NCBI GenBank assembly: GCA_021740915.1
Contig: JAIOYW010000015.1
Location: 1-64,000 of the forward strand
Direction of reading: 5' to 3'
Source: Ignavibacteriales bacterium
GTDB taxonomy: Bacteria > Bacteroidota > Ignavibacteria > Ignavibacteriales > Melioribacteraceae
DNA: 64,000 nt
This document shows positions 52,066-59,675 of the stretch, piece after piece; within the stretch, counting starts at the first letter, position 1; each line of letters opens with the position of its first letter. The translations under genes were made by a program, and so were the position numbers. The notes beneath the pieces were generated by a model. That model was not told where the DNA came from and ran no database searches. It saw only the letters and a list, made by a program, of their open reading frames with translations.

Positions 52066-52974
52066 ATGCAGAACGGAAAATTATTTTGGGGTTTCTTATT
52101 AATCTCGCTCGGTGTTATTTATTTATTAACAAAAGCATCTATAATCACCTCCGGCTTTGGTTTTGTCTGGGATATCTGGCCAGTCTTCTTTATCTTCTGG
52201 GGTGCTCTGGTATTACTGAAGGAAACATTTGTACGCCCTTTTGCAGCAGCGGGACTTGGGATTCTTGCAGGTTTACTTATTTATGGTTTTGCTTTCAGAG
52301 CAACTCATAGTATATGTGATTTTGAAACTGATTTCCCCGGTATAGGAACGATCTCAACTTTTGAAGAGAATTATGAAGGAAATATTAAGAGTGTCAAGCT
52401 TAAACTGGAAGGTGGTCTTGGAAAACTGAAGATCAACGGCGAGACAGATAAGCTGTTTAGTGCAAGGGGGGTTATTCTTGGATCAAATTTCAATTATGAG
52501 TCGGACGACCGCGATTCAACTGCTCAGGTCAGAATAGATATGGACACAAACTTAAGATTTAAAGTTTTTGGTAAACAGGTATCACCAAAACTTGAACTTA
52601 ATTTAAATCAAAATCCTGATTGGCAGTTAAAATTTGAATTAGGAGCAGTTCAGGGTAAGATAGACCTTTCTGAGAATAAAGTCTCAAAACTCAGCCTCGA
52701 TGCAGGGGCAGCAGAAATCGATCTGAAATTGGGAAATAAACAATTAAATAGTGATGTTAGGATTGATCTCGGCGCTTCTGATCTGGTCGTTAGAATACCG
52801 ATGGATTCAGGATGCAGAGTCTCCGGCAGTGTCTTTATGGTTGACAGGGAACTCGATGGTTTTATCAGGGATGAAGATGATAACTTTATAACTCCTGATT
52901 ACGCTACAGCAAAAAATAAAATCAATTTGGAAATAAACGGCGGTGTATCAAAACTTACAATTGATCGTTATTAA
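52066..52974 (+). CDS. LiaF-like/DUF5668 membrane protein with toastrack domain
   Basis: A 302-residue protein with three hydrophobic segments in the first ~85 residues (GFLLISLGVIYLLTKASI, then IWPVFFIFWGALVLL and AAAGLGILAGLLIYGF). A long beta-rich domain follows (about 95-302), with the repeat-like pattern of the LiaF/DUF2154 toastrack fold. Together with the PspC gene it forms the two-gene envelope-stress pair common in Gram-positives and Bacteroidetes. Its stop codon overlaps the stop end of the convergent GHKL gene by four bases (52971-52974). Confidence 0.82.
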   Translation: MQNGKLFWGFLLISLGVIYLLTKASIITSGFGFVWDIWPVFFIFWGALVLLKETFVRPFAAAGLGILAGLLIYGFAFRATHSICDFETDFPGIGTISTFEENYEGNIKSVKLKLEGGLGKLKINGETDKLFSARGVILGSNFNYESDDRDSTAQVRIDMDTNLRFKVFGKQVSPKLELNLNQNPDWQLKFELGAVQGKIDLSENKVSKLSLDAGAAEIDLKLGNKQLNSDVRIDLGASDLVVRIPMDSGCRVSGSVFMVDRELDGFIRDEDDNFITPDYATAKNKINLEINGGVSKLTIDRY

Positions 52975-53471
52975 ACCGACTTTTCGGAATCATCCGGGAA
53001 AATAACCGTAAACTTAAACCCGGATTTTTTATTTGTCTCGACAACAAGTAATGCGTTGCTGATATTACAGCATCGTTTAACGTCTGATAATTTTTTTTCA
53101 TCGCTATTGCTGCTTGAATTATTATTAAAGAAAGGCAGGAACATATCCTCAATAAATTCCTGTGTCAGTCCCTGTCCAAAGTCTTTAATTCTAAAAATAA
53201 GACTTCCTGAGAAATTCTTAGAAAGACTGATTTCAATTGAACGATCTGAAGAAAATTTTATGGCATTCTCAATCAGTTTCCGCACAATTTCTTCGATTGA
53301 TACCTTATCGCCTTCAAGCGAAGATTCTTTTGTATCGTTTATTAAATGGATTGATATCGAGCGAGTATCTGCAAGCGGTTTAAGTTCCTCAATGATTGGA
53401 ACTATCACCTGATGATATATATCAAATTTCACCCTGTTACCCCAATAGTGGATGGAATCATTTTCGGACAT
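52971..53471 (-). CDS. Stand-alone GHKL (HATPase-like) protein, degenerate lid
   Basis: A 166-residue protein consisting of little but a histidine-kinase ATPase domain. The N-box is VRKLIENAIKFS, the G1 box is RIKDFGQGLT and an F-box (FLPFF) follows. The G2 GLGL motif is missing: the region reads SDVKRCCNISNALLVVET. There is no HisKA domain or phospho-acceptor His. It could be a decayed kinase, an anti-sigma-type GHKL protein or a nucleotide sensor. It lies downstream of the half-receiver and sigma54 activator genes, on the same strand, but separated by 643 bp of non-coding DNA. Confidence 0.6.
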   Translation of the reverse strand: MSENDSIHYWGNRVKFDIYHQVIVPIIEELKPLADTRSISIHLINDTKESSLEGDKVSIEEIVRKLIENAIKFSSDRSIEISLSKNFSGSLIFRIKDFGQGLTQEFIEDMFLPFFNNNSSSNSDEKKLSDVKRCCNISNALLVVETNKKSGFKFTVIFPDDSEKSV

Positions 53472-54114
53472 TTATACAGCCAATGCACATTACTAAATCA
53501 CAGTATGTTCAGAGTATTCAGCTACTCACGCAGGAAATAAAATGATTTAATGAGCAATGAAATTCTGTTAATTTCGTAATTCCTGTGCTTAATTTGTTGC
53601 GCCAAATGCAATTATTGTAATAATAAATGCCGTCCGCCTGCTTCAAATAAAAAAGATTGAAAAAAAAATTAACAATCATAAAGTGAAATGAACCTGAGTG
53701 CAATATAATTAATTTAAGTGAAGATTAAAATCCTGAATTGTACAGTATGTGCAAAAGCTGATCACATTTCCAGCAGAGAGTAAGAATTAAATATTTCAAT
53801 TTTGGTGTTTAATATTTATGCGATAATGAAAATCTCAAGAGGAAATAATTCCAACAGCACAAATTCCAAAGAAGGCAAGTTGACTACCAAATTATCATAT
53901 TTGATTTGCCTGGCACAAAAGAGGGCAGAACAAAGCCTCTGTTTGAAGGCGACTTTCTAAAAATAATGTCGTAATTGGAATACAACAAGGAGAATTTATG
54001 TCGCCTGAAAGCAACATCATGCTTTAAATATTATTAATAATAAATGAGTATTGAGGTGGAGGGAAAACTGCAAGATATTTTCGGGATTTGCAAACACAAT
54101 ACTACGTTTTCTGA
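53472..54114. other. 643-bp gap with decayed or micro-coding sequence
   Basis: No full gene is found. A 44-codon plus frame (53826-53960) and a 9-codon frame with a good ribosome-binding site (AAGGAG at 53987-53992, ATG at 53998) are the only items. A 61-codon minus frame (53518-53703) has no domain and no ribosome-binding site. The gap may be an eroded gene, as both flanking minus-strand genes are signalling fragments. Confidence 0.4.
53998..54027 (+). other. Nine-codon ORF with strong ribosome-binding site
   Basis: AAGGAG (53987-53992) is followed after five bases by ATG and nine codons (MSPESNIML) before TAA. It could be a leader peptide or the remnant of a lost gene. It is not linked to a clear downstream plus-strand gene, so a decayed gene start is more likely. 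Confidence 0.25.
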
Positions 54115-54345
54115 TTAACAAGCATCATCACCTTGATTCATTGGATCAACAGTTGATTCTGAATCCTCCTCAATCTTGTCAAGCAGATACCTGATTTTAA
54201 TTTTCCCAATCAAATCTCTTGCAGTCGATCTGCTTGTTGCCGTTAATATACTGTAACCCTCTTTAACGAGTAATTCACGTAATTTTCTTAATTCATTTGT
54301 ATTGTTATCTATGATCAGAAAATCTATAGGCTGACTTTTTTTCAT
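54115..54345 (-). CDS. Half receiver-like domain (truncated response regulator?)
   Basis: A 76-residue protein that matches only the first part of a response-regulator receiver: beta1 with one acidic residue of the usual pair (FLIIDNNTNEL), helix 1 and beta2 (LRKLRELLVKEGYSILTATS). The frame leaves the family before the phospho-acceptor Asp and ends in a polar tail (DKIEEDSESTVDPMNQG). It therefore cannot be phosphorylated in the usual way. It follows the sigma54 activator by about 70 bp on the same strand. It may be a truncated gene or a small partner protein. Confidence 0.5.
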   Translation of the reverse strand: MKKSQPIDFLIIDNNTNELRKLRELLVKEGYSILTATSRSTARDLIGKIKIRYLLDKIEEDSESTVDPMNQGDDAC

Positions 54346-54414
54346 TTGACTTTTGCTTGTTTATTAAATTAAGTCAAATTTAATGCCAACCCAGCCCTTG
54401 TAATTATCAATCAC

Positions 54415-56142
54415 TCAATAAGGAATATCCAATTGACTCAATAATTTATAAAAATGTGTTCTATTAACTCCGAGTGCTTTTGCTGCATCAGATTTAGTAC
54501 TGAATTTTCTGAGTGTTTTGAGTACGTACATTTTCCGAAATTCATGTTCAGCCTCCTGAAGGGTCAAACCAGATTTAATTGCTACTTCTTCAGATCTGAC
54601 TTCAATAATTTCCGGCGGCAGATCATCCACATCAATTTCTTTAGCTTTTGCGAGAACTATACATCTCTGGACCACATTTTCCAATTCGCGGATGTTACCT
54701 GGCCAGCCATATTCTTCAAGTACATTCATTGCTTCGGCTGTGAAAAAATGTTGCTCATCATCCAGTGAATATTTCTCCAAAAAATACTCAACGAGTAATT
54801 CAATGTCCTCTTTCCTTTCCCGAAGAGGCGATAACTTAATTTCAATCACTTTTAAGCGGTAATAAAGGTCTTCTCTGAATTCACGATTTTCAATCATTTC
54901 AGTAAGATTTTTATTTGTTGCAGAAATGAAACGTACATCAATTTTTCTGGTATTTGTGGAACCCAGACGTTCAATCTCATGCGTCTGTATAACCCTTAAC
55001 AGCTTTGCCTGGAGATTCTGTGACATCTCTCCAATTTCATCGAGAAAAATAGTGCCGCCCTCAGCTAATTCAAGACGACCCGGTTTACTTTTGGTGGCTC
55101 CAGTAAAAGCACCGCTTTCATAGCCAAATAATTCTGATTCCAGCAGATCTGCCGGAATCGCACCGCAGTTAATTGCAATAAAAGGTTTGCTTTTCCTCGG
55201 ACTATTTAAATGGATTGCCTGCGCCAGTAAATCTTTGCCGGTTCCATTCTCGCCAAGGATAAGTAGATTGACGTTTGTTTTGGAAACTTTTTCAGAAACT
55301 CTCAGAACTTCATAAAGTTTTCGGCTTCGCCCGATAATGTCTCCAGAAAAAAAAGAATTCCGCAATTCTTTGAATTTAACTGTTAAATCGGATTGTAGTT
55401 CGTTTTCTAAAGTTTGAATTTCCTCCGAAATCTCAATACCTTTAACTATCTGTTTTGCAAAAGAGATAAGATATTTAAGATCTGATTCTGTAAAGGGATT
55501 TTCTTTCTGTCTCCTATCAAGGTAAACTGCTCCAAAAACTACCTTGCCTGAAATAAGCGGGACGCAGATAGTTGATTTGAGTCCGAGACTGATAACACTA
55601 TTTTGCTGTGCAAAATCATTTTCTGTCTTAAGATCATCAAATTTTACTGGTTTCAGCCTTTGGAGAGCATTTTTTATCACACTCGTACTCATTTCTTTGG
55701 CACTGTGATGAACATTGTCGTCCATGTTTTTTGTGACAATATTCTCAAAATTAAGCTGGTCATCTGTGAGTACAATGAATCCTTCATCTGCTTTTAACTC
55801 ATTTACAACTGTATCCAAAGCCTTTTCGAGCAATTTTTTCATCTCCATCTCTGAAAGGAAATAGATACCGGTAGTGTATAAAGTTTCAAGTCTTCTTTTT
55901 TCTTCAAGAAGGATTTTCAACTGTCTGTTTTCAGATGCGTGATTTTTTTCCAGAATAACAAAATCTGCCTGAAGCCCTCTGAAATAGCCCAAAATTGATA
56001 TAAAAACCTTCTGAACCCTTGAAGCTAATCCCGGATCATTTTTTGTGTGATTTGCAAGTTCAAGGAAGTCCTTTGTGAATGCAGAGATAATTTCATCAAT
56101 TTTTTTAGAAACCGGAACTTTGTCCGTTTGAGACTGAGTCAT
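54415..56142 (-). CDS. Sigma54-dependent activator with GAF domain
   Basis: A 575-residue enhancer-binding protein. The N-terminal helical region (1-90, with a coiled coil at about 70-90) and GAF domain (about 95-240) replace the receiver of NtrC-type proteins. The AAA+ domain has Walker A GENGTGKD (297-304), the sigma54-contacting GAFTGA (344-349) and Walker B GGTIFLDEI (362-370). A FIS-type helix-turn-helix closes the protein (KSDAAKALGVNRTHFYKLL). All motifs are intact, so it should open sigma54 promoters. It starts 2 bases after the stop of the FG-GAP/Ser-Thr kinase gene, so the kinase is the obvious partner. Confidence 0.93.
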   Translation of the reverse strand: MTQSQTDKVPVSKKIDEIISAFTKDFLELANHTKNDPGLASRVQKVFISILGYFRGLQADFVILEKNHASENRQLKILLEEKRRLETLYTTGIYFLSEMEMKKLLEKALDTVVNELKADEGFIVLTDDQLNFENIVTKNMDDNVHHSAKEMSTSVIKNALQRLKPVKFDDLKTENDFAQQNSVISLGLKSTICVPLISGKVVFGAVYLDRRQKENPFTESDLKYLISFAKQIVKGIEISEEIQTLENELQSDLTVKFKELRNSFFSGDIIGRSRKLYEVLRVSEKVSKTNVNLLILGENGTGKDLLAQAIHLNSPRKSKPFIAINCGAIPADLLESELFGYESGAFTGATKSKPGRLELAEGGTIFLDEIGEMSQNLQAKLLRVIQTHEIERLGSTNTRKIDVRFISATNKNLTEMIENREFREDLYYRLKVIEIKLSPLRERKEDIELLVEYFLEKYSLDDEQHFFTAEAMNVLEEYGWPGNIRELENVVQRCIVLAKAKEIDVDDLPPEIIEVRSEEVAIKSGLTLQEAEHEFRKMYVLKTLRKFSTKSDAAKALGVNRTHFYKLLSQLDIPY

Positions 56143-56144
56143 AA

Positions 56145-59100
56145 TTATTTTATACTATCCAAATCTTTTTTTACTTCGTAAATGTAACTATATCTATTAT
56201 TTTTTTCCTTCATGAGACATTTTGCAATTATCCTATCCCATACCGGACTAAGATTCTCAACTATCTCTGATGGAGGAATTGGCTCATCATTAAAGATCGA
56301 ATGTATCAAAGCAATTTCATTCTCTCCGGTGAAAGGCAAACGATTTGTGAGCATCTGATAAATAATGACTCCAAAAGAAAAAATATCGCTTCGGTTGTCT
56401 ATCTCTGAATTCGTTATCTGTTCAGGTGATACAAAACCCAGTGTTCCGATCACCGTGCCGATTGTTGTCATTTTCGAAACATAGAATGATTTGGATAGGC
56501 CAAAATCCATTAATTTAATATTCATTTCAGAATCAAACATCAGGTTTCCGCTTTTCATATCACGGTGGATAATTCCTTTTGAGTGAATAAAATTCAAAGC
56601 ATCCGAGATCTGAATCAGAATATTAATAACTTCAGGAATAGGAATTGGGTATCTTTTCTCAATATAATCTGCTAAAGAGCCATTTGGCAGATACTCCATC
56701 GCAAAATAAGCCCGATTTTTTTCTTCCCCCAGTTCAAAAAGTTTTACAATATTTGGGTGCTCAAGACCCGCTAAAAGATCAGCTTCAGATTTAAGTCTTC
56801 GTTTATTTTCTTCGTCTTTAACAAGATCGGTATTAATAACTTTAAGGGCTGCGATATTGTTATGCAGTGTACTTTTTACTTTGTAAACTTTGCCCATTCC
56901 CCCACTGCCGATCAGTTCTAAAATTTTATAGTGTGAGATATAAGAACTTTTCCTTTTCTCTGATATATAAACCCCGGTTCTGACTGCCAGAAAACTTAAG
57001 GCGAGCGGTATTGCCATTGTCGTGACCGCCTGGAAATATGGGTTTTTTAATATCAGAAAATGAAAAATGATATGATAAATAAAAATATTCAAAGGAATGA
57101 AATACCAGTTAATAACCCATGGCTCATACTGGCTCTTCCAGACAAAAATGCTTATAAGAATAAGTAAGCCAAGAAAAAATAAAAGTAATGGAATATGTGT
57201 TTTCGCCTCATATAATGTATATGTGCGAAGTATATCCTTCTTTATAAATATCAGATAACTCCTTAGCAGTGAAGATTCATTAATATCATAGATTGTGTTT
57301 TTCTTAAGATTTTCAACTTTTACAATATTACCTGAAGGGAATCTGATTTCGGCATGAATACTTGCTCCCTCTGGAAGCCCGAAAAATGTGTTTTTTTTCG
57401 AATTCTGAGACATCGGATTTTCACCCATGCCCGTTTCTTTGAAGGCAATATTTGTTCGAATTCCAGCCGAATCCGAATAAAGATATATCACCGAACCAAT
57501 AGCATCCCGGTTTGAAATATCCCCGGATAAACGAAACCCGACGAAAGCTTTGGGGGATAAATTATTTCGAAAAAGAGCTGCTCTTTTACCTTCGCCGAAA
57601 CTATTTCGAGTTGCAGCAATAAAGATATCCTGATCTCCATCAAGATCATAATCTTCAAAAACAGGATTGCCGGTAAAGTCGATTCCTGTCTGATTTGTAA
57701 CATCAGTAAATTTAATGCCGTTTTCATTCAAGAGCACCCTTGACCCAATGAAAAGATCAGGATAATTATCGTTATTGATATCAGCAAAATTTGCTATTCC
57801 ATTTGACGGATCGTTATGTGTAAGAATAAAATCGAAGCCGTATTCAATTGTCCGGTCAGTGAACTCGAATCCCCCTTCATTTATGAACAACTTATTCGCT
57901 TCGCGATTATTTATAACAAAGATATCGGGAAATCCGTCCTGATTAACATCTTCAGAACAAATTGCATAAGTAAGCAGTGTCGATCTGCTTTCCGAAGCGG
58001 GCAAAGATATTGGTGAGAAATTGAAATTGCCCATATTTTCGAATATCTGAAAATACTTCCCGTTTTCTGCAAATTTGTATGGAATAATTATATCGGCAAA
58101 TCCGTCCTTATTTAGGTCAGTAAATGTAGCGCCATATGAATCACGATACATTAATTTTTCTGACATCACTTTCTTTGTCAATTGGAAAAATTGTCCGCTG
58201 CCATTGCCTCTGAAGATCGCATCCGGGAGGTTATTATTTGAAAGGAACAGATCGAGATTCCCATCCGAATCCAGATCAATAAATTTGGCGGAAATATTAG
58301 CCTGATCATCAATATGCGGAAGTTTAAGAAGACTTTTTTCTGTGAAATCGACGAGACTTTGATCGCTGCCTCCAAGAAAAAATCTAAAGTACGCATCATT
58401 CAGGATCTGCAGAAGATCAGTAAAACCATCGTTATTTACATCTCCGATAGCAATAGTCCTCGATTCTATTATATATTGGTCATCACCAGGCGTAGTTAAT
58501 TCTCCAAAAAATTTACCATCAATATTAATTGAAAGTTGCCCGGGAGCTTCTTCCACCCGTGTTATTAAATCCGGATAATTATCATTGTTCTTGTCGAAAA
58601 ATGAACCGGCAAAAGATTGAGTTCTCAGATTGACTTGCGCTGTCACGTCGGTAAATGAAAAGCCGAGAGACTGAGAATTTGAATATATTCCATCGGCTCC
58701 AACCAGCCAGACATTTTCATTGTTCTCGTTTACGTTAACGACTGAAATATCATAAAAATCATCATTAATAAAACTAATTTCAGGTACTATCTCCAGTCCC
58801 CTCTCAGAAATTACGAGAAAAGTCGATCGGCTTCCGGCTATATAAGTTTTATCTCCAGAGAACTCCAAAGAATGTAAAACAGATCGGGTATTAGAAGGAA
58901 AATTTTCCCATTTACCATTAATGTATCGAACAATGGTACCCCTGCCGCCGACTGCCCAGCCGTTCCCATTTGTATCAAACTTCACTTTATTGAGATTCAC
59001 ATCTGTCGGGCTTTCAGACTTCTCCCACCGTTCTCCATCGTACTTTAAGATCGTACCTTTCCAGCCGACAGCCCAACCTTCCTTTTCATTCACCATGCAT

Positions 59101-59675
59101 ATAGAATTCAAATCTCCATCAGCAAGATTATTATACTCAATTTCTCTCATAGGACTTGGAAACTCACTCCACGATTTTCCGTCATAATGCAGAATATATC
59201 CCTGCTGACCCACCATCCATGCTGTACCATCCTCAAGAATACTCAGATCTTTCCACATAACATAGTCTGTTTCATCCCACATAATTGAGGGAAGTGAAAT
59301 TTCTTCTTTTTGTGATGAAGTCAGTTTATATAATCTGGGTTTATAATTATTATGGTGGCTCTCATGATGAATGAACCAAATTGAATTTTTATTGTAACGG
59401 GCAACCAATGGAAAATCACTATATGGATATTCGGCTAATGCACGCCATCCTCTGCCGTTAAATTCATATATTTTACCATTTTTATCTTCTCCCTTTCCTC
59501 TTGAGACAGCAAATCCTGAAGTGGATGAGTGCATTGAAATCCTTGAACCAAGATCAACAGGCATCTGTTTGTACCAGATACTGGAAAATTGTTCCGATTC
59601 ACCCGGCACACTCCTGGAAATATTACAGGAGAAAAAGATAATTGTGAGGCAAAATATTAATATCCAGGATTTCAA
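56145..59675 (-). CDS. Transmembrane Ser/Thr kinase with propeller, FG-GAP and ASPIC ectodomain
   Basis: A 1176-residue receptor-like kinase. The signal peptide ends at FFSC, a possible lipobox. YCF48-like repeats (about 80-330; three copies of GWAVGxxGTIxxY-type text) are followed by seven calcium-type FG-GAP motifs (for example DVNNDGFTDLL, DLDSDGNLDLF, DYDLDGDQDIF). An ASPIC/UnbV domain (about 695-785) and three membrane helices (about 805-905) come next. The cytosolic kinase (915-1176) is complete: GSGGMGKVY, Lys945 in AALKV, HRDMKSGN (D1039), DFG (D1057) and SPEQ. The start is TTG at 59675 with AAAGGGA 5 bases upstream. The sigma54 activator gene follows after 2 bases. Confidence 0.9.
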   Translation of the reverse strand: MKSWILIFCLTIIFFSCNISRSVPGESEQFSSIWYKQMPVDLGSRISMHSSTSGFAVSRGKGEDKNGKIYEFNGRGWRALAEYPYSDFPLVARYNKNSIWFIHHESHHNNYKPRLYKLTSSQKEEISLPSIMWDETDYVMWKDLSILEDGTAWMVGQQGYILHYDGKSWSEFPSPMREIEYNNLADGDLNSICMVNEKEGWAVGWKGTILKYDGERWEKSESPTDVNLNKVKFDTNGNGWAVGGRGTIVRYINGKWENFPSNTRSVLHSLEFSGDKTYIAGSRSTFLVISERGLEIVPEISFINDDFYDISVVNVNENNENVWLVGADGIYSNSQSLGFSFTDVTAQVNLRTQSFAGSFFDKNNDNYPDLITRVEEAPGQLSINIDGKFFGELTTPGDDQYIIESRTIAIGDVNNDGFTDLLQILNDAYFRFFLGGSDQSLVDFTEKSLLKLPHIDDQANISAKFIDLDSDGNLDLFLSNNNLPDAIFRGNGSGQFFQLTKKVMSEKLMYRDSYGATFTDLNKDGFADIIIPYKFAENGKYFQIFENMGNFNFSPISLPASESRSTLLTYAICSEDVNQDGFPDIFVINNREANKLFINEGGFEFTDRTIEYGFDFILTHNDPSNGIANFADINNDNYPDLFIGSRVLLNENGIKFTDVTNQTGIDFTGNPVFEDYDLDGDQDIFIAATRNSFGEGKRAALFRNNLSPKAFVGFRLSGDISNRDAIGSVIYLYSDSAGIRTNIAFKETGMGENPMSQNSKKNTFFGLPEGASIHAEIRFPSGNIVKVENLKKNTIYDINESSLLRSYLIFIKKDILRTYTLYEAKTHIPLLLFFLGLLILISIFVWKSQYEPWVINWYFIPLNIFIYHIIFHFLILKNPYFQAVTTMAIPLALSFLAVRTGVYISEKRKSSYISHYKILELIGSGGMGKVYKVKSTLHNNIAALKVINTDLVKDEENKRRLKSEADLLAGLEHPNIVKLFELGEEKNRAYFAMEYLPNGSLADYIEKRYPIPIPEVINILIQISDALNFIHSKGIIHRDMKSGNLMFDSEMNIKLMDFGLSKSFYVSKMTTIGTVIGTLGFVSPEQITNSEIDNRSDIFSFGVIIYQMLTNRLPFTGENEIALIHSIFNDEPIPPSEIVENLSPVWDRIIAKCLMKEKNNRYSYIYEVKKDLDSIK

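Follow-up and report, generated by a model that had tools for sequence, protein, structure and literature searches.

A Twin-Propeller Receptor Ser/Thr Kinase Inherited with a Sigma-54 Activator and, Usually, a Half-Receiver in Ignavibacteriales

Introduction

What does a bacterial Ser/Thr kinase control when its sensor is built from two propellers and an ASPIC-like domain? The question is raised by one gene in a 64,000-nucleotide stretch of DNA from an Ignavibacteriales bacterium (contig JAIOYW010000015.1, positions 1 to 64,000; hereafter the window). The original prediction treated the encoded protein by itself, and this one-protein view is too narrow: the kinase, a sigma-54 activator of the enhancer-binding protein (EBP) type, and usually a half-receiver (mini-REC) are inherited together. 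It also left unremarked a lipobox-like cysteine, the EBP gene lying 2 bp on, the mini-REC, and, in relatives, a palindrome with a sigma-54-like box. We argue that the receptor kinase probably controls its dedicated sigma-54 activator within a three-part signaling module.

Results

The Kinase and a Sigma-54 Activator Share One Distribution

Two adjoining genes form the core of the locus.

56145..59675, minus strand: receptor Ser/Thr kinase gene, 1176 amino acids, TTG start (open reading frame, Pfam, and orthologue alignment).
54415..56142, minus strand: sigma-54 activator (EBP), 575 amino acids, with GAF, AAA+, and Fis-like helix-turn-helix domains, starting 2 bp after the kinase gene (Pfam).

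The kinase gene is one uninterrupted frame, as the original prediction had stated, and its TTG start has a purine-rich AAAAAGGG a few bases upstream. Walker A and GAFTGA of the EBP are constant in 11/11 sequences, which identifies it as a sigma-54 activator; its Fis-like helix-turn-helix match is weak. The specific assignment to NifA was ruled out (380.6 vs 528.85 bits for the equivalog).

We compared 58 relatives at family and order level, the window's own genome among them (genomes are labeled G and loci L), scoring up to 12 kinase and 23 EBP candidates per genome and all mini-REC candidates. Among the matches listed, 12 of the 58 genomes have the kinase, which is full length in 11 and broken into two pieces at contig ends in G025. 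The EBP, at E <= 1e-150, occurs in exactly these 12 (G000, G003, G005, G010, G011, G020, G023, G024, G025, G032, G047, and G052), the remaining 46 having neither. The naive chance of two identical sets is 1.1e-12, a figure that takes no account of shared ancestry and should not be read as a probability. In a 395-genome sample of the phylum, which partly overlaps the 58 relatives and in which up to three EBP and two ectodomain candidates per genome were scored, a full-length ectodomain (at least 990 bits) is found in 10 genomes and the EBP in 14, that is, the same 10 and four f39 genomes. A scan of named genomes (best 80 matches) added loci L037–L043.

Gene order is likewise conserved. In 18 of 21 kinase-bearing genomes, the first same-strand frame of 90 amino acids or more after the kinase is the EBP, with the mini-REC lying between in G047 and G052; in the other three it lies three genes off (L038), four genes off (L041), or on another contig (the genome of L040). 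The pair is kept in L043, from a metagenome-assembled genome titled Deltaproteobacteria, where the kinase protein is 28% identical over the best segment. The intervening stretches in L038 (9546–11955) and L041 (11007–13620) hold opposite-strand genes for a PII-like protein of 112 amino acids, a protein of 230–237 amino acids, and one of 449–504 amino acids that may be an ammonium transporter, both labels being guesses from the sequence starts.

These distributions bear on a rival explanation that we judge decidedly unlikely, namely that the two genes are inherited and expressed together yet uncoupled, the kinase having other targets and the EBP sensing a small molecule through its GAF domain. 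Pfam does place a GAF domain in the EBP, the EBP and mini-REC occur without this kinase in the four f39 genomes (limited candidates scored), and Hanks-type kinases are described as few per genome and pleiotropic rather than exclusive in their targets (PMC4601284). Uncoupled genes would fit poorly, however, with an identical distribution in 12 of 58 genomes, with linkage that persists at 28% identity, and with an EBP still present in the genome where it no longer adjoins the kinase (L038, L041, and L040).

A Half-Receiver Usually Accompanies the Pair

54115..54345, minus strand: half-receiver (mini-REC), 76 amino acids, matching short frames in other loci (profile, structure model, and substitution rates).

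Twelve aligned mini-RECs of 64–76 amino acids share a core that stops after beta3 and has no conserved aspartate at the phospho-acceptor place, and so they are not complete receivers. The model is a beta-alpha-beta-alpha-beta fold (predicted local distance difference test, pLDDT, 74), receivers head the list in a fold search, weakly (best E 0.067, Foldseek), and the receiver model PF00072 matches 10 of the 12 sequences, the window's copy not being among them. That copy is one of the lowest scoring in the 58-genome search (92 bits), and a profile built without it gives it 72 bits vs 100–113 for the 12 others.

The mini-REC is present at 92–112 bits in 11 of the 12 kinase-bearing relatives and in none of the other 46, including G011, where it and the kinase lie on different contigs. 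Three weaker matches (37–41 bits) fall in frames of 390–458 amino acids in G032, G012, and G031, presumably full regulators. The ratio of nonsynonymous to synonymous substitution rates (dN/dS) is about 0.1 in two close pairs, which are thus under purifying selection; a third pair is saturated at synonymous sites. Of the 21 kinase-bearing genomes, 16 yielded a mini-REC; G032 lacks it genome-wide, and none was seen in the loci of L038, L040, L041, and L043. In f39 it adjoins the EBP in 4/4 genomes (three by profile, one by motif reading).

A second rival shares the kinase–EBP link with the reading we prefer and reverses or reroutes its output: the kinase would inhibit the EBP, or act via the half-receiver as its real substrate or as an anti-activator. 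We think this rather unlikely. The co-presence of the mini-REC in 11 of 12 kinase-bearing genomes and its position beside the EBP in all four f39 genomes speak for it, and they make the mini-REC at least a partner of the EBP; its absence from G032 and from the four loci just named speaks against it, and indicates that the mini-REC is not essential to the kinase–EBP link.

Anatomy of the Receptor Kinase

The kinase protein divides into six parts, given here from the N-terminus.

59625..59675, minus strand: signal segment ending in a lipobox-like Cys17, residues 1–17 (Cys in 10/10 aligned orthologues and, by eye, in 19/20 complete N-termini).
58671..59588, minus strand: N-terminal propeller, YCF48-like, residues 30–335 (PSII_BNR match and predicted fold).
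57555..58670, minus strand: FG-GAP propeller with seven motifs, residues 336–707 (Pfam, motif reading, and predicted fold).
57288..57503, minus strand: ASPIC/UnbV-like domain, residues 725–796 (below threshold by sequence, supported by fold).
56970..57194, minus strand: three hydrophobic helices, residues about 828–902 (hydropathy).
56187..56930, minus strand: Hanks-type kinase domain, residues 916–1163 (Pfam and orthologue alignment).

The kinase domain was predicted to be complete, and it is. The Pkinase match over residues 916–1163 has an E-value of 8.5e-60 (202.8 bits vs a cut-off of 31.7), and K945, E964, H1037-R1038-D1039, N1044, and D1057-F1058-G1059 are unchanged in 10/10 aligned full-length orthologues, which are 32–43% identical to the window's protein. 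With the glycine loop, Lys, Glu, HRD, and DFG all constant in these orthologues, the domain belongs to the Hanks type. A PASTA-type PknB/Stk1 kinase was ruled out (282.9 bits vs a cut-off of 450, the match being confined to the kinase part), and the Pfam scan found no PASTA repeats in the protein. A hybrid two-component system was also ruled out, as the domain search showed no histidine kinase with a fused response regulator in the protein.

The predicted helices correspond to three hydropathy maxima near residues 828–846, 858–876, and 880–902. Called from hydropathy, these peaks together with the signal segment fit an extracytoplasmic sensor joined via membrane helices to the intact kinase, a topology that we infer and that agrees with the original prediction. 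Cys17 is constant in 10/10 aligned orthologues, and by eye a cysteine closes the hydrophobic signal in 19 of 20 complete N-termini (FFSC in the window; elsewhere, e.g., LSAC, ITSC, or LNGC), L043 being the one without. Because of this constancy, the EBP-linked clade likely has a lipid-anchored N-terminus in addition to the membrane helices before the kinase. By eye, no lipobox-like cysteine is seen in the f21 kinases L155, L157, and L158 or in the histidine kinases L023, L024, and L159, which are taken up below; in the histidine kinase L022 the cysteine is present and the small residue before it is absent.

Domain search bore out the YCF48 and FG-GAP calls. The PSII_BNR/YCF48 match covers residues 146–252 (9.6e-11), and the corresponding range of the structure model (13–318) fits seven-bladed propellers; many unrelated propellers score nearly alike in the fold comparison, so the YCF48 kinship is drawn from sequence. 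FG-GAP_3 (1.8e-24) and FG-GAP (4e-19) both match. All seven predicted DxDxDGxxD-type motifs were found, at residues 361, 412, 467, 520, 576, 632, and 675, those at 361 and 632 having N in place of G, and their spacing of 43–56 residues is that expected of a seven-bladed propeller. The Asp residues of six of the seven motifs are constant across 10 orthologues, as expected if calcium binding has been kept. This conservation, and an account of Dx[DN]xDG "calcium blades" (PMC3123361), are the grounds for reading the FG-GAP propeller as probably shaped by bound calcium.

The ASPIC/UnbV call fell short by score and stood by fold. Residues 725–796 match UnbV_ASPIC at E 0.011 and 16 bits (Pfam cut-off 23.4), and at 21.7 bits, also below it, in a whole-genome search; 4 of 10 kinase members match at E <= 0.1, and all three histidine-kinase relatives scanned exceed the cut-off at 27–38 bits. 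An AlphaFold2 model of residues 18–825, built on nine sequences, has a pLDDT of 84.6 and a predicted template modeling score (pTM) of 0.83, and its range 319–785 (protein residues 336–802) matches murine CRTAC1 (9etn) across propeller and ASPIC domain alike (Z 31.1, root-mean-square deviation 3.0, 437 residues). We therefore reject the possibility that the ASPIC call is spurious, given this fold match and the above-cut-off domain in the related histidine kinases. The whole ectodomain model matches the BT4663 periplasmic domain (E 2.4e-17, TM-score about 0.45, Foldseek).

Is the protein then simply an unremarkable fusion of an FG-GAP/ASPIC protein to a kinase, with no dedicated pathway? Shorter FG-GAP-type relatives, in open frames of 527–650 amino acids, do turn up in the ectodomain search of the 395 genomes and speak for this view. 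Yet the architecture is kept in 21 genomes together with the catalytic residues, the lipobox-like cysteine (19/20), and the partner gene, and the conservation of that partner largely refutes this explanation, which we regard as very improbable.

Promoter Boxes and Palindromes

54375..54388, minus strand: sigma-54-like box TGGCAT-N5-TTG before the mini-REC, with no palindrome close by.
53999..54016, no strand: palindrome TGTYGC-N6-GCRACA downstream of the mini-REC, the only exact copy in the 4.35-Mb assembly.
53874..53889, minus strand: weak sigma-54-like box with two mismatches to YGGCAY-N5-TTG, downstream of the palindrome and of doubtful function.

A first sigma-54 scan, weighted for the GC of the −12 element, gave no enrichment, and the box, which ends in TTG and lacks the conserved C, was recognized only after the mini-REC had been found. 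An exact YGGCAY-N5-TTG, with sigma-54 spacing, lies 40–91 nucleotides upstream in 13 of 18 mini-REC starts inspected; of the others, L034 and L160 have a box with one mismatch, L025 and L032 have none, and in L042 it stands before the upstream gene of the operon. Further upstream of the box, relatives carry one or two TGTYGC-N6-GCRACA palindromes, often about 34 bp apart. A palindrome with at most two mismatches precedes an exact box by 25–130 bp in 16 of 27 system loci (25 genomes) vs 0 of 72 background loci (697 kb), a count that is descriptive because the motif was read from the very loci counted and the background, taken from other taxa, is unmatched in composition. More independent is a count of exact palindromes in 24 genomes, the 12 with the kinase and 12 picked from the 46 without: the former hold 10 in 8 genomes, six of the 10 inside this locus, and the latter two in 2 genomes, with a reversed-pattern control giving 2 and 2. 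In the f39 loci L151–L154, EBP and half-receiver are likewise accompanied by palindromes and a sigma-54-like box, and another input may exist there.

Four of the exact palindromes in kinase-bearing genomes lie outside the locus. Those of G024 and G032 (contig C48) precede genes of similar size and opening sequence for BNR proteins of 401/403 amino acids with type IX sorting tails, with one-mismatch boxes; after the BNR gene of G024 come the A5 lipoprotein, which elsewhere follows the mini-REC, and a 180-amino-acid protein. Another, in G047, has a one-mismatch box and a frame of 385 amino acids, and that of G032 (contig C126) has no box. A two-mismatch palindrome with an exact box occurs at lipoprotein genes of G052, where a 182-amino-acid gene precedes the lipoprotein gene, and of G032. 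The A5 lipoprotein-like family (252–257 amino acids; no Pfam match for the one member scanned) lies beside the mini-REC in L025, L028, L029, L030, L042, and L163 and is also found in L162. It is not specific to the system, occurring in 17 of 58 genomes: 9 of the 12 with the kinase (G047 weakly, 80 bits) and 8 of the 46 without (G050 and G054 partial). No relative was found in the window's genome, and the window shows no trace of a lipoprotein or small-protein gene. The control region in the window is not intact, and the local circuit there may be rearranged or decaying.

Downstream of the mini-REC by about 640 nucleotides lies an orphan HATPase_c frame of 166 amino acids (window 52971–53471, minus strand) with no match to a phospho-acceptor domain; no relative of it was seen in the system loci compared.

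The Same Sensor on Other Outputs

The domain scan showed that in L022, L023, and L024 the FG-GAP/ASPIC ectodomain and hydrophobic segments are followed by HisKA_3 and HATPase domains, and L159 resembles them by likeness alone. A same-strand regulator of 209–214 amino acids follows all four histidine kinases and is of REC-GerE type in the two scanned. Since histidine kinases next to REC regulators carry this ectodomain too, it serves as a portable input module in the control of transcription. Its outputs have been exchanged, and sensors of this type feed at least two phosphotransfer chemistries. A diverged ectodomain-kinase occurs in four f21 genomes (ectodomain 215–298 bits, kinase 216–235 bits). 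Beside it, in loci L155, L156, and L158 and not in L157, lie a convergent response regulator and histidine kinase, OmpR-type in the one set scanned.

In the ectodomain tree, three sets each hold together: the EBP-linked kinases (16), the f21 kinases (four), and the histidine kinases (four). Support for the deeper branching is weak, and three of the six secreted-type sequences are fragments with very long branches, so we draw no conclusion on the number of output swaps. Among the matches listed, G057 (contig C95), G056 (C12), and G037 (C13) have six to eight consecutive Ser/Thr kinase matches over 13–20 kb, in frames of roughly 700–1430 amino acids.

Discussion

Taken together, co-inheritance, gene order, and promoter layout suggest how the module could work, the steps after the kinase being drawn from these three. 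The ectodomain would lie in the periplasm, probably tethered by lipid at its N-terminal cysteine, and would sense an envelope or surface ligand; in the original prediction, an ectodomain that binds calcium or else a carbohydrate or protein would control the kinase directly. Its signal would pass through the three membrane helices to the cytoplasmic Ser/Thr kinase, which would act on its operon partner, the GAF-AAA EBP, most simply by phosphorylation. The EBP may then bind the TGTYGC-N6-GCRACA palindromes and fire the sigma-54 promoters of a small regulon. The half-receiver would belong to this regulon and probably binds the EBP as a feedback or adaptor protein; in several relatives the regulon would also include a lipoprotein, a small secreted protein, and BNR proteins that carry type IX sorting tails.

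Several observations weigh against control of the EBP by this kinase. The EBP seems able to work without it, since the four f39 genomes have EBP and mini-REC with no matching kinase ectodomain (two candidates per genome scored) and no receptor kinase stands beside the EBP in L151–L154; conversely, the four f21 genomes have a related kinase and no EBP at threshold (three candidates per genome scored). Pfam finds no FHA domain in the EBP, which thus has no known phospho-threonine reader, and its N-terminal serines are not decisive as phosphosites, as Ser/Thr occurs there in f39 EBPs too. The promoter evidence has the limits of a motif counted where it was read, and when one box mismatch is allowed the background rises to 6/72 loci vs 20/27 system loci. 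In the window no palindrome/box pair passes the criteria, and one-mismatch palindromes number 7 in its own genome vs 9 in the control, none with a box; being no commoner than in the control, they reveal no wider regulon in that genome.

We also entertain, tentatively and at somewhat less than an even chance, a more specific version in which the system is the Ser/Thr counterpart of a two-component system. Its receptor would be a lipid-anchored kinase with twin propellers and a CRTAC1-like head that switches a dedicated sigma-54 activator, and a co-evolving, phosphorylation-incompetent half-receiver would read or damp that activator. The occurrence of the same ectodomain on histidine kinases elsewhere suggests that the phosphotransfer chemistry was exchanged and the sensor kept. 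Should the N-terminal lipid be anchored in the outer membrane, such a receptor would reach across the periplasm.

The window's kinase is a variant form of receptor Ser/Thr kinase; what sets it apart is how strictly it is coupled to a sigma-54 activator, usually with a half-receiver as well, and the three-part system is more unusual than the kinase protein alone. Their joint inheritance hints at a route, not described so far, by which the cell envelope reaches gene control. A kinase with one co-inherited activator and a recognizable promoter code would be a clean one-to-one Ser/Thr pathway. In the histidine kinases that share this ectodomain, one sensor can be compared directly across two chemistries, and the locus gives the CRTAC1 fold a bacterial signaling context. 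In the open-licence literature we found no paper joining FG-GAP or enhancer-binding proteins with Hanks-type kinases, which does not show absence from print.

Comparison with Known Systems

CRTAC1 is secreted and is not known to have a kinase or membrane helices. It shares with the window's protein the FG-GAP propeller and ASPIC domain, at 16% identity (PDB 9etn). The FG-GAP/ASPIC histidine kinases (L022, L023, L024, and, by likeness, L159; 26% mean identity in the FG-GAP/ASPIC part) have the same ectodomain layout and differ in output, having HisKA_3/HATPase domains (three scanned) and a REC-GerE partner (two scanned). Of the solved structures and NCBIfam models compared, the PASTA kinases PknB/Stk1 match the kinase domain best, whereas the window's kinase is without PASTA.

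BT4663, a hybrid two-component system of Bacteroides, is a histidine kinase with a fused regulator. Its large propeller ectodomain likewise feeds transcriptional control and occupies Foldseek ranks 2–6 and 8 (PDB 4a2m/4a2l), whereas the window's system has a Ser/Thr kinase, a separate sigma-54 activator, and an ASPIC domain before the membrane.

The original prediction held that bacterial receptor kinases usually carry PASTA or small sensor domains, and so passed over PknD of Mycobacterium tuberculosis, a beta-propeller receptor kinase that, in an excerpt of PMC4601284, signals through the anti-anti-sigma factor Rv0516c to the SigF regulon. Both are Hanks-type receptor kinases with an outside propeller and a signal into an alternative sigma factor pathway. 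PknD has its sensor at the C-terminal end, after one membrane region (PMC4601284, same excerpt), whereas the window's kinase has two propellers and an ASPIC domain, then three helices and a C-terminal kinase, with a sigma-54 activator as its partner.

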